Below, piece by piece: positions 2,274 through 11,386 of a DNA stretch of 11,716 nt. Numbering within the stretch: the stretch's first letter is position 1; every line of letters starts with the position of its first letter. Below the pieces are notes generated by a model. That model made no database searches. It saw only the letters and a list, made by a program, of their open reading frames with translations, and was not told the origin of the DNA. A program made the position numbers and the translations under genes. Source of the DNA: Bacillota bacterium (GTDB lineage: Bacteria > Bacillota > Clostridia > Lachnospirales > CAG-274); NCBI GenBank assembly GCA_017627115.1, contig JAGAHK010000288.1, positions 1 through 11,716 of the forward strand, in the 5' to 3' direction.

Positions 2274-2299
2274 TTAAAGTGATTTTGTCGCCGCAGCCT
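2274..2299 (-). repeat. Repeat-like sequence encoding the C-terminal tail of the ECF fusion
   Basis: Bases 2274-2299 match the intergenic bases 11570-11595 at 23 of 26 positions in the same orientation. Both share TTAAAGT, ATTTTG and CGCCGCAG, with mismatches at 2281, 2288 and 2297. At this site the sequence encodes the last residues of the ECF fusion (AAATKSL) and its stop codon. The match stops abruptly beyond both edges. Confidence 0.5.
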
Positions 2300-4661
2300 G
2301 CAAAAGCCCGAACTTCACCTTTACTCTTTCTATTTTTTCTATCATTTCGCCGCCTATCAGCACCAAAAAAACGCTTGTGCCCACAGCGTGTATCATATCA
2401 ACGGGAAAGCCGCTTATATACGAAAACAGCAGCTCTTTCATACTTGGGTCGGGCTGATACATTATGACCGAAGCGGGGTTCATTATTCCGCCGTATATAA
2501 AAAGTACCGCCAAAAAGCCGAATACCGCAAGGCTTGCCTTGCTCCTGCCCAAAAGCCCGAGCCTTGAAAGTATGCCCGACAGAAAGCCTATTATGCCCAG
2601 CGTGAACATCTGCCACGGTGTCCACGGCCCCTGACCGAAAAAGAAGTTCGATACAAAGCCGCTGACTGCACCTGTCATAAAGCCTGCCTCCGCACCGAGA
2701 CAAGCGCCCGATATTATTATCATCGCACACATGGGCTTGAATTCGGGCACCATAAAAAATGCAGCGCGCCCCAGACAGGTGAGGGCGCAGATCATGGCTA
2801 TGAGCATAAGTTCGCGTGTGCGTGCCAGCCTGTCCTCGAATATCATAAAAAAGGGCAGCATAGTCATAAAAATTATTATGACACTTATAAAATAGTATTT
2901 TCTGTCGTTTAGCACCGTCATGCCGAAAAACAGGGTAATGGGTATCAGCAGCAGTATCATAAGCGCGGCAAAGACCGTGCGTTTGTTTTCCGCCCGTTTC
3001 TCGGTCGTGCTTACGTTTTGCGCCGCCAGTTCCTTTGCGGAGGCGTGCCTGCCCGTGCCGCTCTCGTCTATATCCGTTTTTTTGCCCATAGCATCAAGCA
3101 CTTCATCAGTGGTTATGCGCTTTTCCATATACGGGCGTGATATGCGCGAAGCATCTGTGGTGTAGAAAGCACTGCGCGGGAAAAACTCATGAGGCTCACC
3201 CTCGCTGACTATCTCGGTATCAAAAAGCATTGCGCAGCGGTTTGCGTACTCCGCACAAAACTCCGTATCATGCGACACAACGACCACGGTAAGCCCGTTT
3301 TCGGTCAGCTCTATAAGCAGTTTTCCGAGCTTTTGCTTGTAAAAATCATCAATGCCCTTTGTCGGCTCGTCAAGCAGCAGTATATCGGGCTTTGAAAGCA
3401 GCAGTTTGGCTATTGCCGCCCTCTGGAGTTCACCGCCCGAAATGTCGAATGGATGCGAACCGAGAATATCCGTTATCTGCGTAAGTTCCGCAATATCCGC
3501 CGCTTCCGTTGTTTTGCCGCTTTCCATAGCGGCGCATAGGTCGTCGTATACGGTCTTGTGCGTGAAAAGATCGGCAGGCTCCTGCGGCAAAAGCAGGACT
3601 TTGCTCTCGGTCTTTATACTGCCGCGATAGGGGCGCAAAAGCCCTGCAAGCAGTTTCAGTGCGGTGGTCTTGCCGCTGCCGTTGCTGCCAAGAAGTGCGT
3701 AAAAATCACCCTTTTTTATATCTATATCAAAGTTTTTAAGTATGTCCTTTCCGCTGCGCTCATAGCCGAAGTATACGCCGTTCGCCCGAAGCACGGTCTC
3801 TTTGCTTCTGCCGCGGCTTTCGGGAGCAGCTATACTGCCGCCGTCAAGATAGTTTTCAAGTGCTGCGGAGGCTTCCGATACCGTCATGCAGGCTTTTCCT
3901 GCGGCTGTGCCTATACGCACGGCGGCAGGCAGGGCGCAGAGCATGGGATGCCTTTTTTTATATAAAAACTCCGCTGTTTTCTGCGGTGTGTCAAAGTTTA
4001 TAAGACGTCCGCCGTCCATTACCGCCACTTTGTCGGCGCGGCGGAATACCTCGTCAAGCCTGTGCTCGCTTATCACTACCGTTATGCCGAGCTCGCTGTT
4101 TACACGTCCGAGCATATCAAGAAAATCGTGCGTTACAAGCGGATCGAGCCTTGCTGTAGGTTCATCGAGCATTATTACCTCGGGGCGCAGTGCGGTAACG
4201 GCGGCAAGGCTCAAAAGCTGTTTTTGTCCGCCCGAAAGCTTTGCCGTGTCCCTGCGGAACCAATCCGATATGCCGAAAAATGCGGCAGTTTCCGCAACAC
4301 GCAGCCTTATCTCGTCCTGCGGAAAGTTAAGGTTTTCAAGCCCGAAAGCAAGCTCGTGCCATACCTTGTCCGTGACTACCTGTTCTTCGGGGTCCTGCAT
4401 AACAAAGCCTATTTTCTGCGCCTGTTCGCGCGGCGAAAGCTCCGAAAGCTCTTTGCCGCCGCAGTATACTTTGCCTTTTTTAATACCGTGCGGCGCAAGG
4501 GCTGTTTTCAGCATACGCAAAAGAGTTGTTTTGCCGCTGCCGCTCTGACCGCAGATAAGCACAAAACTGCCTTTATTCACTTTTAACGAAACATTGTCAA
4601 GTGCAAGCCTGCCTTTTTGCGGATAGGCAAAACTCAGACCTTCGATCTCAATAATCGCCAT
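2274..4661 (-). CDS. ECF transporter fusion: two ATPase domains plus S component, predicted cobalamin type (CbrU-CbrT)
   Basis: A 795-residue fusion. ABC domain 1 (about 3-235) has Walker A GQSGSGKTT (38-46), Q-loop MQDPEEQ (88-94), LSGGQ (142-146), Walker B with E167 and switch H200. ABC domain 2 (about 291-495) has GSNGSGKTT (325-333), ISGGE (407-411), E432 and H464, so both look catalytically complete. A charged linker (about 510-560) leads to about six or seven membrane helices (561-780) with FKPMCAMIII (641-650) and FFFGQGPWTPWQMF (673-686), typical of the S-component family annotated CbrT. Duplicated ATPase, S and T together match the predicted cobalamin ECF transporter, which would drive vitamin uptake with ATP. 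The start overlaps the T gene by 28 bp and has GAGGAG upstream. A, A and S in one chain is unusual for ECF systems. Substrate is inferred and could be another corrinoid or vitamin. Confidence 0.88.
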   Translation of the reverse strand: MAIIEIEGLSFAYPQKGRLALDNVSLKVNKGSFVLICGQSGSGKTTLLRMLKTALAPHGIKKGKVYCGGKELSELSPREQAQKIGFVMQDPEEQVVTDKVWHELAFGLENLNFPQDEIRLRVAETAAFFGISDWFRRDTAKLSGGQKQLLSLAAVTALRPEVIMLDEPTARLDPLVTHDFLDMLGRVNSELGITVVISEHRLDEVFRRADKVAVMDGGRLINFDTPQKTAEFLYKKRHPMLCALPAAVRIGTAAGKACMTVSEASAALENYLDGGSIAAPESRGRSKETVLRANGVYFGYERSGKDILKNFDIDIKKGDFYALLGSNGSGKTTALKLLAGLLRPYRGSIKTESKVLLLPQEPADLFTHKTVYDDLCAAMESGKTTEAADIAELTQITDILGSHPFDISGGELQRAAIAKLLLSKPDILLLDEPTKGIDDFYKQKLGKLLIELTENGLTVVVVSHDTEFCAEYANRCAMLFDTEIVSEGEPHEFFPRSAFYTTDASRISRPYMEKRITTDEVLDAMGKKTDIDESGTGRHASAKELAAQNVSTTEKRAENKRTVFAALMILLLIPITLFFGMTVLNDRKYYFISVIIIFMTMLPFFMIFEDRLARTRELMLIAMICALTCLGRAAFFMVPEFKPMCAMIIISGACLGAEAGFMTGAVSGFVSNFFFGQGPWTPWQMFTLGIIGFLSGILSRLGLLGRSKASLAVFGFLAVLFIYGGIMNPASVIMYQPDPSMKELLFSYISGFPVDMIHAVGTSVFLVLIGGEMIEKIERVKVKFGLLQAAATKSL

Positions 4662-5524
4662 GAAATCTCCTCTTTTATATTTATCGCAAAAGGTATAGTA
4701 TAATACAAAGCAAAGCAGAGATATGCAAATATATTCTGCCTGCCGTTTTTGACAACAGGGTAGTAGTCAAATGTAAAAAAGCCCGAGGCAAAGCAGAAGC
4801 TTACCGCAAGCGCAAGCAGCAGCACGCCCGAAAGCACTATGCCGTCATAGGCTGTAAAGCGGAATATCGTGTAGTCCGTGCGCCTGCCTGTGCCATAGCC
4901 TCGTGACTGCATAGAGTCGGAAATGCGTATGCTGCCCTCAAGCATATGGTTCACAAGCACCGAAAACGCACCCAAAAAAGACGAAAGCCGTTTTACGATG
5001 TTTTTTGAGTGTATATCGTTGCCTATGCTTTTCTGTGCCTGCACTATCTCCCCGAATTTTGCGGAAAGCCGCGGCACAAAGCGCAGTGTCATTGATATAA
5101 GCAGTGAACCTCCGGGGACTATCCTGCCGAAAATATACACTATTTTATCGGTAGTGACCGTTTTGTTGAAGCAGTCGAACCACAAAAGCACCGCCGCAAG
5201 CATTTCGCCTGCCGCAAAGCCGAAAAACACGGACTCCGCCGTAAGAGGGTTTCCGCTGTGAAAATATGTTATAACGGTCGCACCGCGGTGGTTGAAAGTG
5301 GGATTGATAAGCGCTGTCAGCAAAAAAACGGGTATCACCGTGAGCAAACGCAAAAACATTGCCTTTATGCCGCGCACAGCCGCAAAATAAATAAGTGCGC
5401 CCAAAAGCGCAGCCGTAAGGCAGATGGGATTGAACCCAAGCATTGCAAAAAGCATAGCCGCCGCAAAATATATAAAGGTGACAATGGGGTGAAGTTCCCC
5501 GAAAAAGTCATACTCACTGTGCAT
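4634..5524 (-). CDS. ECF transporter T component, predicted cobalamin type (CbrV-like)
   Basis: A 296-residue membrane protein of the EcfT/CbiQ family, the scaffold joining ATPases to the S component. Hydrophobic stretches lie near 14-50, 58-72, 97-116, 136-150, 226-250 and 264-282. The coupling region is the polar cytoplasmic stretch about 150-215. It ends in the SRG of DSMQSRGYG (203-211), the second Ala-Arg-Gly-type coupling motif; the first (VQAQKSIG, 161-168) is degenerate. NPTFNHRG (74-81) and TFDYYP (251-256) also fit T components of this type. The ATG follows AGGAG by nine bases and overlaps the DUF4430 stop by 11 bp. Its own end overlaps the ATPase fusion by 28 bp, suggesting translational coupling and a stoichiometric complex. 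T-component identity is clear; cobalamin specificity comes from context. Confidence 0.87.
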   Translation of the reverse strand: MHSEYDFFGELHPIVTFIYFAAAMLFAMLGFNPICLTAALLGALIYFAAVRGIKAMFLRLLTVIPVFLLTALINPTFNHRGATVITYFHSGNPLTAESVFFGFAAGEMLAAVLLWFDCFNKTVTTDKIVYIFGRIVPGGSLLISMTLRFVPRLSAKFGEIVQAQKSIGNDIHSKNIVKRLSSFLGAFSVLVNHMLEGSIRISDSMQSRGYGTGRRTDYTIFRFTAYDGIVLSGVLLLALAVSFCFASGFFTFDYYPVVKNGRQNIFAYLCFALYYTIPFAINIKEEISWRLLRSKV

Positions 5525-6359
5525 AGTATGTATCTCCTATATCACGGCCGAGGTCGCAGGTGTAAAGCCATTCCACCACATCGCCGTCCTTTAATTTATA
5601 CATATCGCAGCCGTAGCGCGGATGCTCTCCGTTAACGCGGTATTCCCAGCCCGAAAGCTCACCGCAGTCAAATTCATAAATATTGTTTATACCCTCTATG
5701 TATACCGAATTGTATGCGGGTACTTTTGAAAACTCCATATGTATATTGTTTTCGCGCATTTCGCGCAAAAGTACGTCAAAAACGCTTTCGCCCTCCTCAA
5801 AAGTCACGGTCTTCGGCGCAAAAATAACGCCGTCCGCAGGTAAAAGCGAGAGCTTGTTTTTATCAAAATTATCTATATTGTCGAGTATGGTCGCACAGCT
5901 TACCGAAAAAGTACAGGTCTTTGCCGTATTTTCGGAGTGTTGCTGTGCATTTGCGCTTTGCTGTGCAGTTACGGCTTCGGGCTGCTTTTCAGCGGTTTTT
6001 GTCTGTGCCGTGTTTTTGGCGGCGGAAACGGCAGCAGGTTCGGGACTTGCTTTTGAAACTGTTTCCGAAACTTCTTCGGAAATGTTTTCCGAAACCGCTT
6101 CCGACACGGACTCGGAGTTTATTTCCGATATTTCTTCGGATATTTCCTCTGATATTTTTTCTGATATTTTTTCTGATATTTCTTCGGATGTTTCTTCCGA
6201 TATTTCTTTTGTTTCGGACGTTGTTTCAAAAACCGTGTTTTCAGCCGTGTTTTTGTGCTTGTTGCCGCTGCCCGTCCCGCTCGCGAAAAATGCCGCCACA
6301 AGTATCACGACAGCAGCAAGTGCAATAATTATTTTATTCTTCAAGGGTAAGTTTTTCAT
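5514..6359 (-). CDS. Membrane-anchored DUF4430 (transcobalamin C-terminal-like) protein with Glu/Ser repeat stalk
   Basis: A 281-residue exported protein. Residues 8-27 form a signal anchor with no lipobox cysteine, so it probably stays tethered by its N terminus. Residues 52-104 are EISE-type repeats, followed by an Ala/Thr/Gln-rich stretch to about 147. The C-terminal domain has the DUF4430 pattern: CTFSVSC (149-155), GESVFDVL (190-197), YIEGINNIYEFDCG (220-233), SGWEYRVNG (236-244) and WLYTCDLG (264-271). DUF4430 is the bacterial relative of the beta domain that closes over B12 in intrinsic factor and transcobalamin. Five cysteines (149, 155, 232, 251, 268) may form disulfides. It follows the toroid gene by 12 bp and overlaps the T gene by 11 bp. 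I infer a substrate-capture receptor half reaching through the cell wall. Ligand binding is not shown. Confidence 0.85.
   Translation of the reverse strand: MKNLPLKNKIIIALAAVVILVAAFFASGTGSGNKHKNTAENTVFETTSETKEISEETSEEISEKISEKISEEISEEISEINSESVSEAVSENISEEVSETVSKASPEPAAVSAAKNTAQTKTAEKQPEAVTAQQSANAQQHSENTAKTCTFSVSCATILDNIDNFDKNKLSLLPADGVIFAPKTVTFEEGESVFDVLLREMRENNIHMEFSKVPAYNSVYIEGINNIYEFDCGELSGWEYRVNGEHPRYGCDMYKLKDGDVVEWLYTCDLGRDIGDTYYAQ
6048..6206 (-). repeat. 12-nt tandem repeat encoding the EISE stalk
   Basis: The coding strand repeats a 12-base unit that encodes Glu-Ile-Ser-Glu/Lys. The most regular copies span about 6127-6206, where plus-strand GATATT recurs every 12 bases, with drifted copies down to 6048. 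The unit is a multiple of three, so gain or loss of copies would change stalk length without a frameshift. Confidence 0.8.
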
Positions 6360-6371
6360 AACAAAACCTCA

Positions 6372-7391
6372 TCAAGCTACGCTCTGCCATGCCTTGAAAG
6401 CCGCAGCCCAGCGCAGTATCTCCGCAGATATATCCGCAGTTTCGTCTTTGATGCAATAAAGCGGAGTTTTGCCCTCTTTGGCGCGGATATATGCCGTAAG
6501 AGAGTAGACTGCCTGTTCGCTTGCGATAATATCGGCGTTTTCAAGGGTTTTAAGGTGCTTAAATCCGTTTTTTGTTCTGTAGCCGAGAATATTGCCGCAG
6601 ACAGTCTGTCCGTTTTTGATAAATCTTTCGTCCGTATCGGGGTCTATGCCGAGCGTGCAGAGCGCAGTCAGCACCTGTGCGGAACTTTCGCAGGTCTCCT
6701 CGCCCACAGTCGCATAACCGCCGTTGTCAAGCTGGTTTTCGGACAGCCATACAAGCGCTTTTTCAATGCTTTCGTTTATTTTTTTGTCGTCTTTGTACTT
6801 TGCAAGCGCCTGTAATGCCATTGCGGTCATATCCGCATCGCCTTTGTCGCCCGAAAGCGAAAAGCCGCCGTCGCTTTTTTGTGCGGAAAGTATGTGTTCG
6901 ATATAAAGCGCGCGTGTCGCCTGTGTGCCGCTTTTTGCCTGCGGTATAATGTAATTGCCGCAGTCAAGCGCGATAAGTGCGTAAATACTGCCGTTAACAC
7001 CCTGCTTTTTTACCGCATCAATATCGGCAAGCTTTTCAAGCAGATCATAGCCCGATACATTGCGCGGGTCTTTTCCTATAGCCGTGAGAGCGATGACCGT
7101 CCTTGAATACTCGGTATATTTTCTTTCGCTTAAGACTCCGCCGCTTTGTTTAAGAGTATCACAAAGCTTTTTGTAATATACGTCAAAATATCCGTCTTTA
7201 AGCTTCGTGTCGCTCCTTGCGGCCGAAAGTACGAACCATTCGCCGTTTGCGTAGCCAGGTGTAAGTTCGTCACTGCTTACGGATGCTATATATTCGCTTA
7301 CCGCCTGTTTTGCCGTTTCGGTGTCCGCATATACGGTCGCCGAAAACAGCATTACGGCAATAAAAACAAATGCTTTTTTTAAAATATTCAT
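6372..7391 (-). CDS. Secreted squalene-cyclase-like alpha/alpha-toroid protein (transcobalamin alpha-domain-like)
   Basis: A 339-residue exported protein. A signal peptide (1-22, ending TVYA) is followed by helical repeats of the terpene cyclase/prenyltransferase fold. Two QW-like repeats are clear: QKSDGGFS...DADMTAMALQAL (171-196) and ENQLDNGGY...SSAQVLTAL (218-244). Earlier and later helices (95-145, 285-305) look like weaker copies. It is half the size of real squalene cyclases (about 600 residues) and has no DxDD acid motif, so enzymatic cyclisation is unlikely. Intrinsic factor and transcobalamin use the same alpha/alpha barrel as their N-terminal half, and the next gene encodes a DUF4430 domain, their C-terminal half. 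I infer the partner half of a split corrinoid-binding receptor. The ATG is preceded by AAGGA, 23 bp after the glycosyltransferase stop. No anchor is visible, so retention would need its partner. Confidence 0.8.
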   Translation of the reverse strand: MNILKKAFVFIAVMLFSATVYADTETAKQAVSEYIASVSSDELTPGYANGEWFVLSAARSDTKLKDGYFDVYYKKLCDTLKQSGGVLSERKYTEYSRTVIALTAIGKDPRNVSGYDLLEKLADIDAVKKQGVNGSIYALIALDCGNYIIPQAKSGTQATRALYIEHILSAQKSDGGFSLSGDKGDADMTAMALQALAKYKDDKKINESIEKALVWLSENQLDNGGYATVGEETCESSAQVLTALCTLGIDPDTDERFIKNGQTVCGNILGYRTKNGFKHLKTLENADIIASEQAVYSLTAYIRAKEGKTPLYCIKDETADISAEILRWAAAFKAWQSVA

Positions 7392-7414: not shown

Positions 7415-10400
7415 TTAAACTCTGATATATCTGTCAAAAACAGCCGCGTATTTTTTCAGTGTAACGGTGTTTTCAAGCAAAATTCCTATCCTGTACCTGC
7501 CGGGGCGGATAAGCGTGGTGTCTATACTGCTGCCGAAGCCCGAGAGGTTAAGACTGCCCTTTTTGCCGTAGGCGGCACTTATATCAAGCCTTATCACCGT
7601 GCGTGTTTCGGCTGCAAGCGCGCGGTTTTCCTCGTTTATGAGCAGTACACGCTTTTTGTTGCAATTGTTGAGTTTTATGCCGTCCACATAAGCCCAGCCG
7701 TCTATCTCGGTCACTTCGCCTTCGTTCACACGGTCAAGATTTGCCCTGACATTTGCATTAAGGTAAGGCGTTATATCTATGTCGGCACCCGTTATCCTGC
7801 TTATATGTCCGCTGTCGGTAACGTCAATGCCGAAATCGACCTTGTTTTTGACAAGGTTGGGGTTGTAGAAAGGGTCTTTGCCGCGAAGCTTTGGATGCTT
7901 GTTGTATAAAAGCTCCATCTCGCCGCCGAGACGCTTTTTCTTTTCGACACTTTCCTCGTCGCTGCCGCGGCTGACCGATTCGTGATGCCACAACACAGCA
8001 TCGGTGCGTACTACATTATAAAGCCCTTTTTCGTGCAGCCTGAAACAAAATTCCACATCATTGTATGCAACGGCAAGTTCCTCGTCAAAACCGCCTATTG
8101 CATCGAAGGTGCTTTTTCTTATGCAAAGACAGGCGGCAGTGACTGCGATATAGTTGTAATCAAGCTTGTTGCGCCCGAAATAGAGCGGGGCGGAATCGTC
8201 AAAGGGGCTGAATGCGTGCCCGGGACCTATCGGCAGGTTTATCACGCCGCAGTGCTGGATAGCGGTGCTTTCGGGGTAGAGCAGCTTTGCGCCGACTGCA
8301 CCCGTGTGCTTTTGCATCGCCTGACCGACCATTATGCCAAGCCAGCTTCCGTCTATTATCTCCATATCGTCGTTAAGGAAGAGCAGAAACTCGCCGTTTG
8401 CGGACTCCGCGCCCATATTGCACATTACGGAGAAGTTGAAATCACGTTTCTGGTATTGGTAAACAGCACCTGTCTTGTCGCAGAGCTGCCTGTACTTTGT
8501 TTTGTTTTCATCGCTGCTGCCGTTGTCTATGGTTATTATCTCGTAGTTTTTGTACAGAGTTTTTTCAACAAGGCTCGTTATGCAGCGTTCGTATACCGCG
8601 TAATTATCCTTTGACGGTATCACTATGCTTACAAGCGGCTCGTTTACGGGTTTGTAAACAACACGGTACTGTGAGACTTCGGGCACGTAAACCACATCGC
8701 CCTCAATGCCTCTGCGTTTGAGTGCATCCTCTTTGAGTCTGAGCATAGCCTCTTTTACATACGGCTTTGCATCTATATCCGCTGCCACGGAGTTGGGCTG
8801 CTGCCGCCAATGGTAAAGCACTTTGGGTATATGCGCTATCCTGTTTGTCTTTTCGATAAAGCGCAGTGTCATATCATAGTCCTGTGCGCCGTCAAATTCG
8901 CTGCGCAGACCGCCTATCTCGTCTACTATGCTCTTTCGGTATGCCGCAAGATGATTTGTATACATCAGGCACATAAAGGTATCGGGCGACCAATCGGGCT
9001 TGAAATGCGGGAAATGCCGCCTGCCGTTTTCATCAAGCTTGTCTTCGTCACTGTAGATGAAATCAATGCTTTTGTCGTTGTTTACTGCCTTTGTCAGCTC
9101 ATATACCGCGTTGGGAGCGACCGTATCGTCACAGTCCATAAATACAAGATATTCGCCTTTTGCAACCGATATGGCTGTGTTTGTGCATTTTGAGATATGG
9201 CCGTTTTCGCTGCGGTATATGACATTCACCTTTTCCCTGCCTTCGTATGCCGAAAGGATATTGCGTACACTGGCCTGCGTTGAGCAGTCGTCAACAAGTA
9301 TCAGTTCAAAATTGTCATAGGTCTGGCAGAGCACGGACTCTATGCACTCTTTAAGCTGCTCGTCCGCAGTGTTGTACACGGGCACAACAAAGGAAAACAG
9401 CGGTTTGTAGTCAAGCGGTTCGGTCTCGAGGATGTCGTTTTCGGTGTTTTGTATAAAGCTTTCGTAGGCTTTGTCCGCATCCTTGCCCGCAAGCTTGTTT
9501 TTTATCATATATGCCGTTGTGGCAACACCGTAGCCGTTTACGTAGCCCATCACTCTCTGCACCACATTCGGGCGCTTTTCGGGCTTCTGCTTTGGTTTGT
9601 CCTTGTTGGGGTCGGTGTTTTCGCGCACAAGTTCCTTCACCTCATCGGGGATGTCTATAATGCCTATTTCGACGGCTTCCTCGGGGGTGGGGTTCTCTAT
9701 AAGGCGCACAAGCTCGCAAAGACAGTCCTCGTCACTCATAAATATATCATACTCTTCAAGTATGGGCAGTGCAAGGCGCACAAGGTCCGTTATGCCGCGC
9801 AAAACGCTCTCCTTGTGTGCGTGTGTGGTCTCCTCCGTTTCAAGCGTGTAGCCGCAGCTCCCGGTTTTTGCGTACTTGTGCACCGAATTATGCGGCGCGC
9901 TGAAAAACTGCTTTAAAAGCGCCTTTCCGGGTGCAAGTTTTTTTGCAAGCTCCCTGTTGTTTGCGGGCGAAAATACGACCATGTCGCTTTTTTTGTCCTT
10001 TTCAAGCTTTGCGTGACGGGTCGCTTCCGTTATGCCCGCAAAGACAAAACTGTTGCTGCCCTTGTATTCCAAAAGCGAGAGAGCGCGGTCAAGCAAAAGG
10101 CGGCTGCCGCCCTCGAAACCGCTGTCAAAAACAAGCGCATTGCAGTCAAGAAGCCCCGTTTTTGCGATATATTCCTCAAAAGCCGCCCTTTCTTCGGCAA
10201 CTTCCTTGAAAAAGGCATCTTCTTCCATATCTATCAGTTTTCTGAATTTTGCAAAATCGTTTTTGTCTTTTATTATGTCGTTGTAGCTTGAAAAACCTGA
10301 TTTTTTCAGGCTTTTTTCGTCAATACGGCGCATATCGAGCCAATCGAGAGTTTCACGCACGCTGTCACCCGTGCGGAAAGGCGGCAGCAGGGCGCGCGTT

Positions 10401-11386
10401 TCTTCATCAAGGCTTTTCATTCCGCAAAGCAGCAGGGCACGGTATGATGTGTAGAAATACTGCATCGGTATATCCGTAAGTTTAAGTTCGTCAAATATCT
10501 TGTAAAGATTATAGCCGTCACGCGATGAAAAGAACAGCTTGTCGGGCTTGTCATCGGCTATTTTGCGGCGTATCTCGAATATAAGACGGCAGTAAAGACC
10601 GCCTGCGGCTTCCGCGCCGAGACCGTACCAAAAGTCGGAACAGGTGCTTTTAAGCACATTTGCTGCGCTTTTGCACACCGAAAGGAAAAGAGAAGTGTTT
10701 TCGCTTTCCTGTGTGTTGTCGATCATAACGGCATTGAAACCGCAGTTTCTGGCATTTTCGACATCTGTTTTGAAATTGCTGCCTATATGCAATATCCTGT
10801 AGGCGGAAGTCTGCTCCTGTTCGGCAACATAGTCGTATATTTCCGAGTTTGCCTTTGATCTGCCGACCATAGACGATAAATATATCCTGTCCACACCCTC
10901 TATGCCGTGTTTCTCAAACAGTTTCCAAATATCATCTGCATGAAGCAGGCAGTCGCTTATACATATAACGGTTTTGCCAAGCCTTTTTGCGTATTTCAGC
11001 AGGGAATACATAGTTTCGCTGCGCGTGACAAGCTTGCCGAGTGTTTCCTTTTCAATGTTTTTAAGCTGCTCCCAGCTGTATTCGCCCGTGCGCAGTTCCG
11101 AAGTCTGTTCCAATATGGAATAAATATCGTCAAGTGTGTAGATACCGCCGTTTTGATCGGACGACAGTTTTTCCGTGACAGCTGCGTTCTTTTTAGTGTT
11201 TTCGGCGCATTTCGAGCCTATATATGCCCTCTCCTCGGCAAAGCCCGTTATACCCGTTTTTTTTGCGACCAATTCAAAAATATCTTCCCTGCGCATAACA
11301 AGCGGCAGCAAAAGCGTGTCAAAAATGTCAAATGACAATGTATCCGCAAGATCGATATACTGTTTTATTTTACTGATATCCGCCAT
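7415..11386 (-). CDS. Multidomain HAD-like / tandem GT2 glycosyltransferase
   Basis: A 1323-residue protein, probably cytoplasmic, for surface-polymer assembly. Residues about 12-240 are HAD-like: FDIFDTLL (19-26), ICISDC (141-146), HIGSNFKTDVENA (200-212). D20 is in the nucleophile place, but the +2 acid/base Asp is Phe and motif IV has Ser for its first acid, so phosphatase activity is doubtful. Residues about 250-580 (FFSSRDGYNLY 285-295, FDSGFEGG 420-427) resemble the COG5610 HAD-associated region. GT2 domain 1 spans about 661-865 (VDD 698-700, DCDD 751-754, QDYD 835-838). GT2 domain 2 spans about 917-1160 (NDD 1005-1007, NDVEF 1109-1113, WHH 1133-1135). A beta-rich tail follows (1180-1323). 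GAGGG lies upstream of the ATG, and a promoter precedes it. The acceptor and sugars cannot be read from sequence. The next gene is 23 bp away, so read-through into the receptor genes is likely. Confidence 0.88.
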   Translation of the reverse strand: MADISKIKQYIDLADTLSFDIFDTLLLPLVMRREDIFELVAKKTGITGFAEERAYIGSKCAENTKKNAAVTEKLSSDQNGGIYTLDDIYSILEQTSELRTGEYSWEQLKNIEKETLGKLVTRSETMYSLLKYAKRLGKTVICISDCLLHADDIWKLFEKHGIEGVDRIYLSSMVGRSKANSEIYDYVAEQEQTSAYRILHIGSNFKTDVENARNCGFNAVMIDNTQESENTSLFLSVCKSAANVLKSTCSDFWYGLGAEAAGGLYCRLIFEIRRKIADDKPDKLFFSSRDGYNLYKIFDELKLTDIPMQYFYTSYRALLLCGMKSLDEETRALLPPFRTGDSVRETLDWLDMRRIDEKSLKKSGFSSYNDIIKDKNDFAKFRKLIDMEEDAFFKEVAEERAAFEEYIAKTGLLDCNALVFDSGFEGGSRLLLDRALSLLEYKGSNSFVFAGITEATRHAKLEKDKKSDMVVFSPANNRELAKKLAPGKALLKQFFSAPHNSVHKYAKTGSCGYTLETEETTHAHKESVLRGITDLVRLALPILEEYDIFMSDEDCLCELVRLIENPTPEEAVEIGIIDIPDEVKELVRENTDPNKDKPKQKPEKRPNVVQRVMGYVNGYGVATTAYMIKNKLAGKDADKAYESFIQNTENDILETEPLDYKPLFSFVVPVYNTADEQLKECIESVLCQTYDNFELILVDDCSTQASVRNILSAYEGREKVNVIYRSENGHISKCTNTAISVAKGEYLVFMDCDDTVAPNAVYELTKAVNNDKSIDFIYSDEDKLDENGRRHFPHFKPDWSPDTFMCLMYTNHLAAYRKSIVDEIGGLRSEFDGAQDYDMTLRFIEKTNRIAHIPKVLYHWRQQPNSVAADIDAKPYVKEAMLRLKEDALKRRGIEGDVVYVPEVSQYRVVYKPVNEPLVSIVIPSKDNYAVYERCITSLVEKTLYKNYEIITIDNGSSDENKTKYRQLCDKTGAVYQYQKRDFNFSVMCNMGAESANGEFLLFLNDDMEIIDGSWLGIMVGQAMQKHTGAVGAKLLYPESTAIQHCGVINLPIGPGHAFSPFDDSAPLYFGRNKLDYNYIAVTAACLCIRKSTFDAIGGFDEELAVAYNDVEFCFRLHEKGLYNVVRTDAVLWHHESVSRGSDEESVEKKKRLGGEMELLYNKHPKLRGKDPFYNPNLVKNKVDFGIDVTDSGHISRITGADIDITPYLNANVRANLDRVNEGEVTEIDGWAYVDGIKLNNCNKKRVLLINEENRALAAETRTVIRLDISAAYGKKGSLNLSGFGSSIDTTLIRPGRYRIGILLENTVTLKKYAAVFDRYIRV

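Follow-up and report, generated by a model that had tools for sequence, protein, structure and literature searches.

Does an ECF transporter for corrinoids receive its ligand from a two-part extracellular receptor? The question is raised by the window analyzed here, i.e. the whole 11,716-nucleotide stretch (positions 1-11,716 of contig JAGAHK010000288.1) from Bacillota bacterium GCA_017627115.1 (GTDB: Clostridia; Lachnospirales; CAG-274). According to the usual description, an extracellular binding protein is not required by ECF transporters. The preliminary description of this DNA had noticed two adjacent exported proteins tightly packed with T and A-A-S genes, and the four open reading frames (ORFs) indeed lie at these places, all on the minus strand, with a 12-nt gap between the toroid and DUF4430 genes and overlaps of 11 nt (DUF4430/T) and 28 nt (T/A-A-S). 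A glycosyltransferase gene stands upstream of the toroid gene, after a gap of 23 nt. The features are as follows:

6372..7391, minus strand: exported alpha/alpha-toroid protein, 339 amino acids (ORF, Pfam); proposed first corrinoid-facing half
5514..6359, minus strand: membrane-anchored DUF4430 protein, 281 amino acids (ORF, Pfam); proposed second corrinoid-facing half
5559..5792, minus strand: DUF4430 (transcobalamin C-terminal-like) domain within the DUF4430 protein (Pfam)
4634..5524, minus strand: ECF T component, CbiQ family, 296 amino acids, CbrV-like by position (Pfam, gene order)
2274..4661, minus strand: fused A-A-S protein, 795 amino acids, with two ECF ATPase domains and an S component (Pfam)
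2277..2894, minus strand: S-component domain related to the B12-specific CbrT (PDB sequence and profile search)

Regarding the transporter, the T component matches CbiQ (PF02361, 34.6 bits, cut-off 25), and the A-A-S protein matches PF00005 in two stretches, TIGR01166 (231.6 bits, cut-off 211.8), TIGR04520 (313.1 bits, just under the cut-off of 315) and, in its S domain, PF07155 (35.6 bits, cut-off 26.7) and PF12822 (33.2 bits, cut-off 30.7). Searched against the PDB as a single sequence, the S domain returned CbrT (6fnp_A) as the sole match at E ≤ 10 (E 2.1e-5); searched as a profile, it returned CbrT at E 1.2e-16, the second match being at E 0.31. CbrT binds cobalamin and cobinamide with nanomolar Kd and transports both, according to the available part of PMC5997447. 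This kinship agrees with the corrinoid ECF transporter proposed earlier and, judged by sequence, the transporter half is of a known kind, the CbrTUV type. It shares its transporter class with ECF-CbrT (CbrTUV) of Lactobacillus delbrueckii (PDB 6FNP), the S components being homologous; however, the ECF module of ECF-CbrT is common to several S components, (PMC5997447, available part), whereas in the window A, A and S are fused in a single protein, the gene of which belongs to a dedicated cluster that also encodes two exported proteins. The same text names a gene cbrS beside cbrT; we considered CbrS as a DUF4430 protein, and found no such identification in the available parts of the literature.

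At its N-terminus, the DUF4430 protein has a hydrophobic anchor that leads into a stretch of about 118 residues with abundant E, S, T and A (as judged by eye and with a simple pattern), and its domain matches Pfam DUF4430 at E 3.1e-16 (60 bits, cut-off 23.8). DUF4430 corresponds to the C-terminal domain of the transcobalamin, intrinsic factor and haptocorrin carriers (PMC4350170, available part). Consistently, human transcobalamin, the sequence of which was checked for identity to 2bb5_A, matches Pfam DUF4430 with 25.0 bits (cut-off 23.8) at residues 334-406, i.e. its C-terminal domain. A profile of DUF4430 plus stalk gave only weak matches in the PDB, mostly on the stalk part, and a short profile of the DUF4430 core gave P 0.07 in hhalign. 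The identity of DUF4430 with the transcobalamin C-terminal domain is supported by the match of human transcobalamin.

The N-domain of transcobalamin, intrinsic factor and haptocorrin is an alpha/alpha toroid. The toroid protein of the window starts with a Sec-type signal peptide lacking a lipobox (by eye and simple pattern), and matches Pfam Prenyltrans with 25.7 bits, just under the cut-off of 26.5. It has 3998 relatives at E ≤ 0.001, and many of the 120 listed carry PF13243 or PF00432. The residues invariant across 25 rows include W52, T93, Y95, R97, Q130, N133, D187, T189, E235, Q239, H279, E292 and Q293. The N-terminal Cobalamin_bind family (PF01122) did not match the window toroid at E ≤ 1, nor did it appear among the 25 of 65 families listed for A8 at E ≤ 10, and neither transcobalamin nor intrinsic factor was among the toroid matches in the PDB searches. 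Aligned directly to the transcobalamin N-domain, the toroid gave P 0.0027 in hhalign, or P 0.028 with a larger set, the score of which (23.6) was below the top of 60 shuffles (26.8); profile-profile alignment gave z 1.3 (60 shuffles). In these comparisons, sequence by itself is insufficient to link the toroid with the N-domain of transcobalamin. Hence, of the initial idea that the two proteins correspond to the two domains that sandwich B12, the DUF4430 part stands with the human transcobalamin match, whereas the toroid part found weak or negative results in the PDB, hhalign and profile-alignment comparisons.

In the PDB searches, the solved structures closest to the toroid in sequence are squalene cyclases and alpha-2-macroglobulin. 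Together with the upstream glycosyltransferase gene, they would suit an alternative in which the pair has some other function at the surface (binding of the cell wall or of glycans, or an enzyme activity of the terpene-cyclase or thioester type) and merely shares the operon of a B12 transporter. However, the CGEQ motif of thioester (TED) proteins is absent from the window toroid and from all 120 relatives, and the DxDD catalytic motif of squalene-hopene cyclases occurs in only two of these 120 and not in the window toroid, which has DADMT; a motif of the DxD-x-T type is found in 110 of the 120. The transcobalamin identity of DUF4430 also argues against this alternative, as does the distribution of riboswitches. 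The survey of the class covered 40 genomes with 61 toroid matches; for 38 of these, a cobalamin riboswitch lies on the same strand no more than 8 kb upstream, against 0.28 expected from uniform placement, the 61 matches not being independent since several come from one genome; 36 of the 61 are retained when counting only riboswitches above the Rfam cut-off, and 23 of the 61 lack such a riboswitch. Counted per genome, a riboswitch-linked toroid occurs in 29 of the 40 (27 above cut-off only). The 61 leave out the toroid matches weaker than 1e-30, the host genome (its window toroid has no nearby riboswitch) and three genomes of genera already represented (G083, G130 and G143), each of which lists a riboswitch upstream of a toroid. 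Furthermore, a riboswitch stands directly upstream of the toroid-DUF4430-T-AA-S genes in Paenibacillus chondroitinus, P. silvestris, Anaerovorax and the relative G007. In the window itself no riboswitch reached the cut-off, all four matches at E ≤ 5 being far below it, and the only riboswitch detected in the host heads other DUF4430 genes at a different locus. Together, these data support a link between the toroid family and cobalamin riboswitches, and we regard a different surface task as very unlikely. The corrinoid assignment is strengthened because the kinship with CbrT, the transcobalamin match of DUF4430 and the linkage to riboswitches all bear on it.

Is this gene set a peculiarity of one genome? 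Among GTDB genomes, DUF4430, T, A-A and S genes all occur downstream of the toroid at 51 of 63 assessable loci, i.e. the best 80 of at least 567 toroid loci (a choice that leans towards close relatives) minus 17 in which fewer than 6.5 kb follow the start of the toroid. At 53 of the 63, DUF4430 is no more than 2.2 kb away from that start; both counts were made without toroid labels. They supersede a count of 38 strictly contiguous sets out of 80, made with a crude ORF caller and a toroid model, built from 120 proteins, that also labels some S-layer-homology (SLH) domains; this model had no part in the riboswitch counts. The two surveys overlap slightly (3 of the 40 riboswitch-survey regions contain DNA that also belongs to 4 of the 80 loci), and some alignments of whole toroids together with DUF4430 proteins, which MAFFT misplaced, were kept out of the counts. 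The gene set was also found in Paenibacillus and on a Latilactobacillus plasmid, and Latilactobacillus curvatus has an LPXTG-anchored toroid followed by DUF4430, T, AA and S. Thus, the gene set is widespread, not unique; it is not a chance assembly, because it recurs in many genomes. With Paenibacillus and the Latilactobacillus plasmid among its carriers, it is not an arrangement peculiar to the gut, where the preliminary description had suggested that it might capture corrinoids. As for S components for unrelated substrates, they proved not to be frequent partners: a CbrT-like S was found in 22 of 24 regions with toroid, DUF4430, T and A-A, and no S was detected in the other two, using an S model built from such operons and a toroid model that also labels some SLH domains.

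Both domains may also share one chain, as in 45 proteins counted with a toroid model free of SLH sequences. The toroid precedes DUF4430, as in transcobalamin, in 36 of the 45; among these, 14 with several copies also carry DUF4430 before a toroid and 22 do not, while the other 9 of the 45 have DUF4430 then toroid as their sole order. One such fusion (L121) lies directly upstream of T-AA-S, where it replaces the separate pair. A rather unlikely alternative is that a corrinoid transporter is served by surface proteins of which the toroid and DUF4430 bind separately, as serial binders or relay anchors, with no joint clamp. It would accommodate the chains having the reverse order or both orders, the DUF4430 gene (L035) standing beside T-AA-S with no detected toroid, and the linked surface proteins of the host that have DUF4430 and no Pfam toroid match (two DUF4430 with dockerin; propeller with DUF4430 and SLH). 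The proximity at 53 of the 63 loci, the prevailing toroid-first order (exclusive in 22 chains) and the substitution of the pair by L121 speak against it. Also weighing against a joint capture device, DUF4430 without a detected toroid was seen at L048, and toroid-DUF4430 pairs without nearby T/A-A genes at L099 and L112-L114, as labeled by the toroid model that also marks some SLH domains.

Turning to the ligand, it is unlikely that it is a corrinoid precursor or another part of a cobamide instead of complete B12. CbrT also takes up cobinamide (PMC5997447, available part) and, in the host genome, searches for a B12-binding domain, CobS, NrdJ_Z, Cob_adeno_trans and TIGR00276 gave no match, so no B12 consumer was identified there. 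However, cobinamide would presumably be of little use without CobS, the host assembly is 86% complete, and a B12-binding domain is present in 11 of 14 DUF4430-bearing genomes, the exceptions being the host (G000), G004 and G016.

From the above, we think it probable that the window encodes a CbrTUV-type corrinoid importer with a two-part extracellular capture device, most likely with the pair closing on the corrinoid. We infer that the pair would bind a corrinoid, clamp it jointly and pass it to the S component. The toroid, which is secreted, would correspond to the N-domain of transcobalamin and intrinsic factor, and the DUF4430 protein, tethered to the membrane, to their C-domain; the two would close on opposite sides of the corrinoid, and the stalk would retain the ligand-bound pair at the membrane until the corrinoid is transferred to S. 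Like these animal carriers, the window has DUF4430, and many bacterial single chains likewise place the toroid before it; the carriers, however, are single chains, whereas the bacterial device of the window comprises two separate proteins, one of them tethered, with a toroid lacking a PF01122 sequence link.

An extra exported component has already been assigned to a cobalamin ECF transporter, as we propose for the window: the annotation of L. rhamnosus has an "Additional lipoprotein component of putative cobalamin ECF transporter" and the paper describing it names a DUF4430 gene beside rtpR (PMC9963975, available part). The available text of that source does not equate the two entries, and mentions neither a function nor a toroid. 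In Bacteroides, the surface protein BtuG catches B12 for its transporter and can strip intrinsic factor of B12 (PMC6143338, available part); it is a beta-propeller lipoprotein acting with the outer-membrane BtuB in Bacteroidetes, whereas the present pair combines a toroid and DUF4430 with an ECF transporter. The toroid partner and the reading as a split carrier appear to be unreported.

If our proposal is true, a conserved two-part receptor adds a capture step to the B12 ECF transporter, a large family annotated as terpene-cyclase-like or DUF4430 is explained, Bacillota have a counterpart of BtuG, and the question of where the animal B12 carriers come from becomes accessible to tests. More tentatively, and with slightly more doubt than confidence, many Bacillota may possess a split transcobalamin, in which toroid and tethered DUF4430 would close on a corrinoid at the cell surface and feed a CbrT-type ECF transporter, so that ECF importers would possess a dedicated extracellular binding device. 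Larger SLH-, LPXTG- or dockerin-anchored proteins with these domains would serve as an outer relay, and the animal B12 carriers would have descended from this bacterial design or converged on it.

These genes of the window lie on the minus strand in this order:

11386-7415, minus, glycosyltransferase gene
7391-6372, minus, exported alpha/alpha-toroid protein (toroid)
6359-5514, minus, tethered DUF4430 protein
5524-4634, minus, ECF T component
4661-2274, minus, A-A-S fusion
2219-933, minus, ClC channel

From the glycosyltransferase to the ClC channel, successive genes are tightly spaced (23, 12, −11, −28 and 54 nt), and ORF and domain searches bore out the coordinates and domain calls of the preliminary description. 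The toroid and DUF4430 ORFs share a frame and are set apart, across 6360-6374, by a TGA-TGA tandem plus three more codons. The 1323-aa product of 7415-11386 is a HAD-like domain fused to two family-2 glycosyltransferase domains; its gene ends 23 nt before the toroid gene and perhaps shares a transcript with it. The window is an entire contig of the host draft assembly (2.24 Mb, 457 contigs, 86% complete), which is probably a MAG from an organism likely living in the gut.

The S domain alone had a single PDB match at E ≤ 10, the B12-specific CbrT of Lactobacillus delbrueckii (6fnp_A; E 2.1e-5), and a 12-sequence S profile matched CbrT at E 1.2e-16, the second match being 4hzu_S at E 0.31. Since CbrT is reported to bind cobalamin and cobinamide with nanomolar affinity and to take up both (PMC5997447), this kinship makes corrinoids the likely substrate, and it supports the earlier assignment of a corrinoid transporter. 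CbrTUV is an already established kind of transporter, and the names CbrV, CbrU and CbrT appear for the plasmid of L. plantarum MF1298 (PMC6722938). A proteomic study includes among its L. rhamnosus entries an 'Additional lipoprotein component of putative cobalamin ECF transporter' and places a DUF4430 gene beside rtpR (PMC9963975). Among the literature matches listed, from a collection with few subscription journals, none had a title or abstract opening that presents toroid and DUF4430 together as a receptor for B12.

On the MF1298 plasmid, the DUF4430 gene lies two genes past the S component, with a gene annotated as a fucose-binding lectin between them. The intervening product (lectin II, 8885-9937 of the pMF1298-5 locus L209), which follows a CbrT-like S, shows DADTTSM and toroid-like repeat motifs by eye and no match to the toroid model; it is perhaps a divergent toroid.

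We propose that the toroid would be exported while the DUF4430 protein is held ready on a flexible stalk, that the two would clamp a corrinoid between them, and that the tethered complex would deliver the ligand to the S domain, with import by the associated ECF module. The following observations bear on this proposal. First, the gene set toroid-DUF4430-T-AAS was found again in relatives of the same family and order (L033, L034, L036, L039, L041 and L046). In 40 further regions of the class (≤20 kb each, around toroid matches), toroid, DUF4430, T and A-A occur together in 24, 22 of which also carry a CbrT-like S; the others are contig ends, large multidomain-protein loci, T-less loci (S and A-A present, T not detected in L120 and L123) and transporter-less pairs (no transporter found near the toroid-DUF4430 pair of L099 and L112-L114). 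At least 567 stretches of GTDB species genomes encode toroid relatives; the best 80 loci include Paenibacillus species, Anaerovorax, Terrisporobacter, Sporobacter and Papillibacter, and in the 63 with ≥6.5 kb beyond the toroid start, DUF4430 (60), T (52), A-A (52), S (52) or all four (51) lie downstream. Latilactobacillus curvatus has an LPXTG-anchored (PF00746) toroid (model E 2.7e-45) followed by DUF4430, T, AA and S; toroids of relatives are otherwise anchored by a lipobox (45 of the 120 listed, by a simple pattern) or SLH (L136).

Second, using a toroid model cleared of S-layer-homology proteins, we counted 45 chains bearing both domains (6 first-round ORFs and 39 stretches of later loci), no two of them near-identical. 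The toroid precedes DUF4430, as in transcobalamin, in 36 (22 in that order only; 14 multi-copy, with both orders), and follows it as sole order in 9. The strongest evidence that the two proteins, where separate, function as a unit comes from a relative, whose 536-aa chain L121:9160-10767 combines a single toroid with a single DUF4430 (Pfam: 26.8 bits for Prenyltrans, 67.8 for DUF4430). Its gene lies immediately before T, AA and S, and itself follows a 181-aa gene whose DUF4430 match is weak.

Third, a same-strand cobalamin riboswitch lies ≤8 kb upstream of 38 of the 61 toroid matches (E<1e-30) from 40 genomes of the class, versus 0.28 expected; above-cut-off riboswitches alone account for 36 matches in 27 genomes, and of the 100 riboswitches that these genomes contain, 33 stand ahead of a toroid. 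Twelve of 15 DUF4430-bearing genomes, host included, carry a riboswitch (one below cut-off), none being found in G014, G021 and G035; in eleven of these genomes (all except G020) a DUF4430 gene is situated downstream of the riboswitch on the same contig, and in G007 the riboswitch directly heads toroid-DUF4430-T-AAS. A riboswitch also precedes the toroid in four of seven scanned named-genome loci, at ≤~350 bp in P. chondroitinus, P. silvestris and Anaerovorax and ~1.2 kb in Sporobacter; none was found in the two Terrisporobacter loci, the Papillibacter locus or two Lactobacillaceae plasmid loci.

Fourth, residues 334-406 of transcobalamin (2bb5_A) match Pfam DUF4430 at 25.0 bits (cut-off 23.8), hhalign placed the bacterial DUF4430 on residues 326-406 (P 0.0019; P 0.07 with a smaller profile), and TCN proteins are reported to carry DUF4430 at their C-terminal end (PMC4350170). 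For the other protein, the toroid fold class is clear and the nearest kin, judged by sequence, less so: its closest solved relatives are squalene cyclases and alpha-2-macroglobulin, Pfam gave no PF01122 match, and a further Pfam search gave none among the 25 of 65 families listed. Against the transcobalamin N-domain, hhalign returned P 0.0027, then P 0.028 with a larger set (score 23.6; 60 shuffles, mean 14.9, sd 2.9, maximum 26.8), and our separate alignment z 1.3. The invariant polar residues of the toroid are scattered along its sequence.

Enzymatic readings of the toroid are disfavoured, CGEQ occurring in 0 and DxDD in 2 of the 120 relatives listed. Two class genomes have a toroid gene and a cobalamin riboswitch that point away from each other, ~165 bp apart (L120 on G092:C39, and G064:C1), the L120 riboswitch heading an opposite-strand gene with weak DUF4430 matches. 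In L048 (7585-8618, G032:C7), a sub-threshold cobalamin riboswitch precedes genes for a short DUF4430 protein that begins with a lipobox-like sequence and for a 171-aa S-like membrane protein with no match to the CbrT-like S model; the locus may represent a different kind of importer that is partnered by DUF4430.

Regarding the use of B12, a search of 20 related genomes for B12-binding domains found them in 16. Of the 14 genomes that bear DUF4430, 11 have such a domain, and none was found in G000 (host), G004 (same genus) and G016; the remaining genome without one, G009, lacks DUF4430. A genome-wide search of the 86%-complete host assembly found no B12-binding domain, CobS, NrdJ_Z, Cob_adeno_trans or TIGR00276; with these families, neither an enzyme dependent on B12 nor an adenosyltransferase was detected. 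No cobalamin riboswitch was found in the window; the one detected in the host (93.4 bits, contig C46, L032 11528-11738) lies just upstream of other DUF4430 genes. Under it (L032 7513-11423, minus) are encoded a 480-aa protein with two DUF4430 domains and a dockerin and, after it, one of 820 aa that combines propeller-like repeats with DUF4430 and SLH. A B12 binder held by a dockerin or an S-layer would be unusual.
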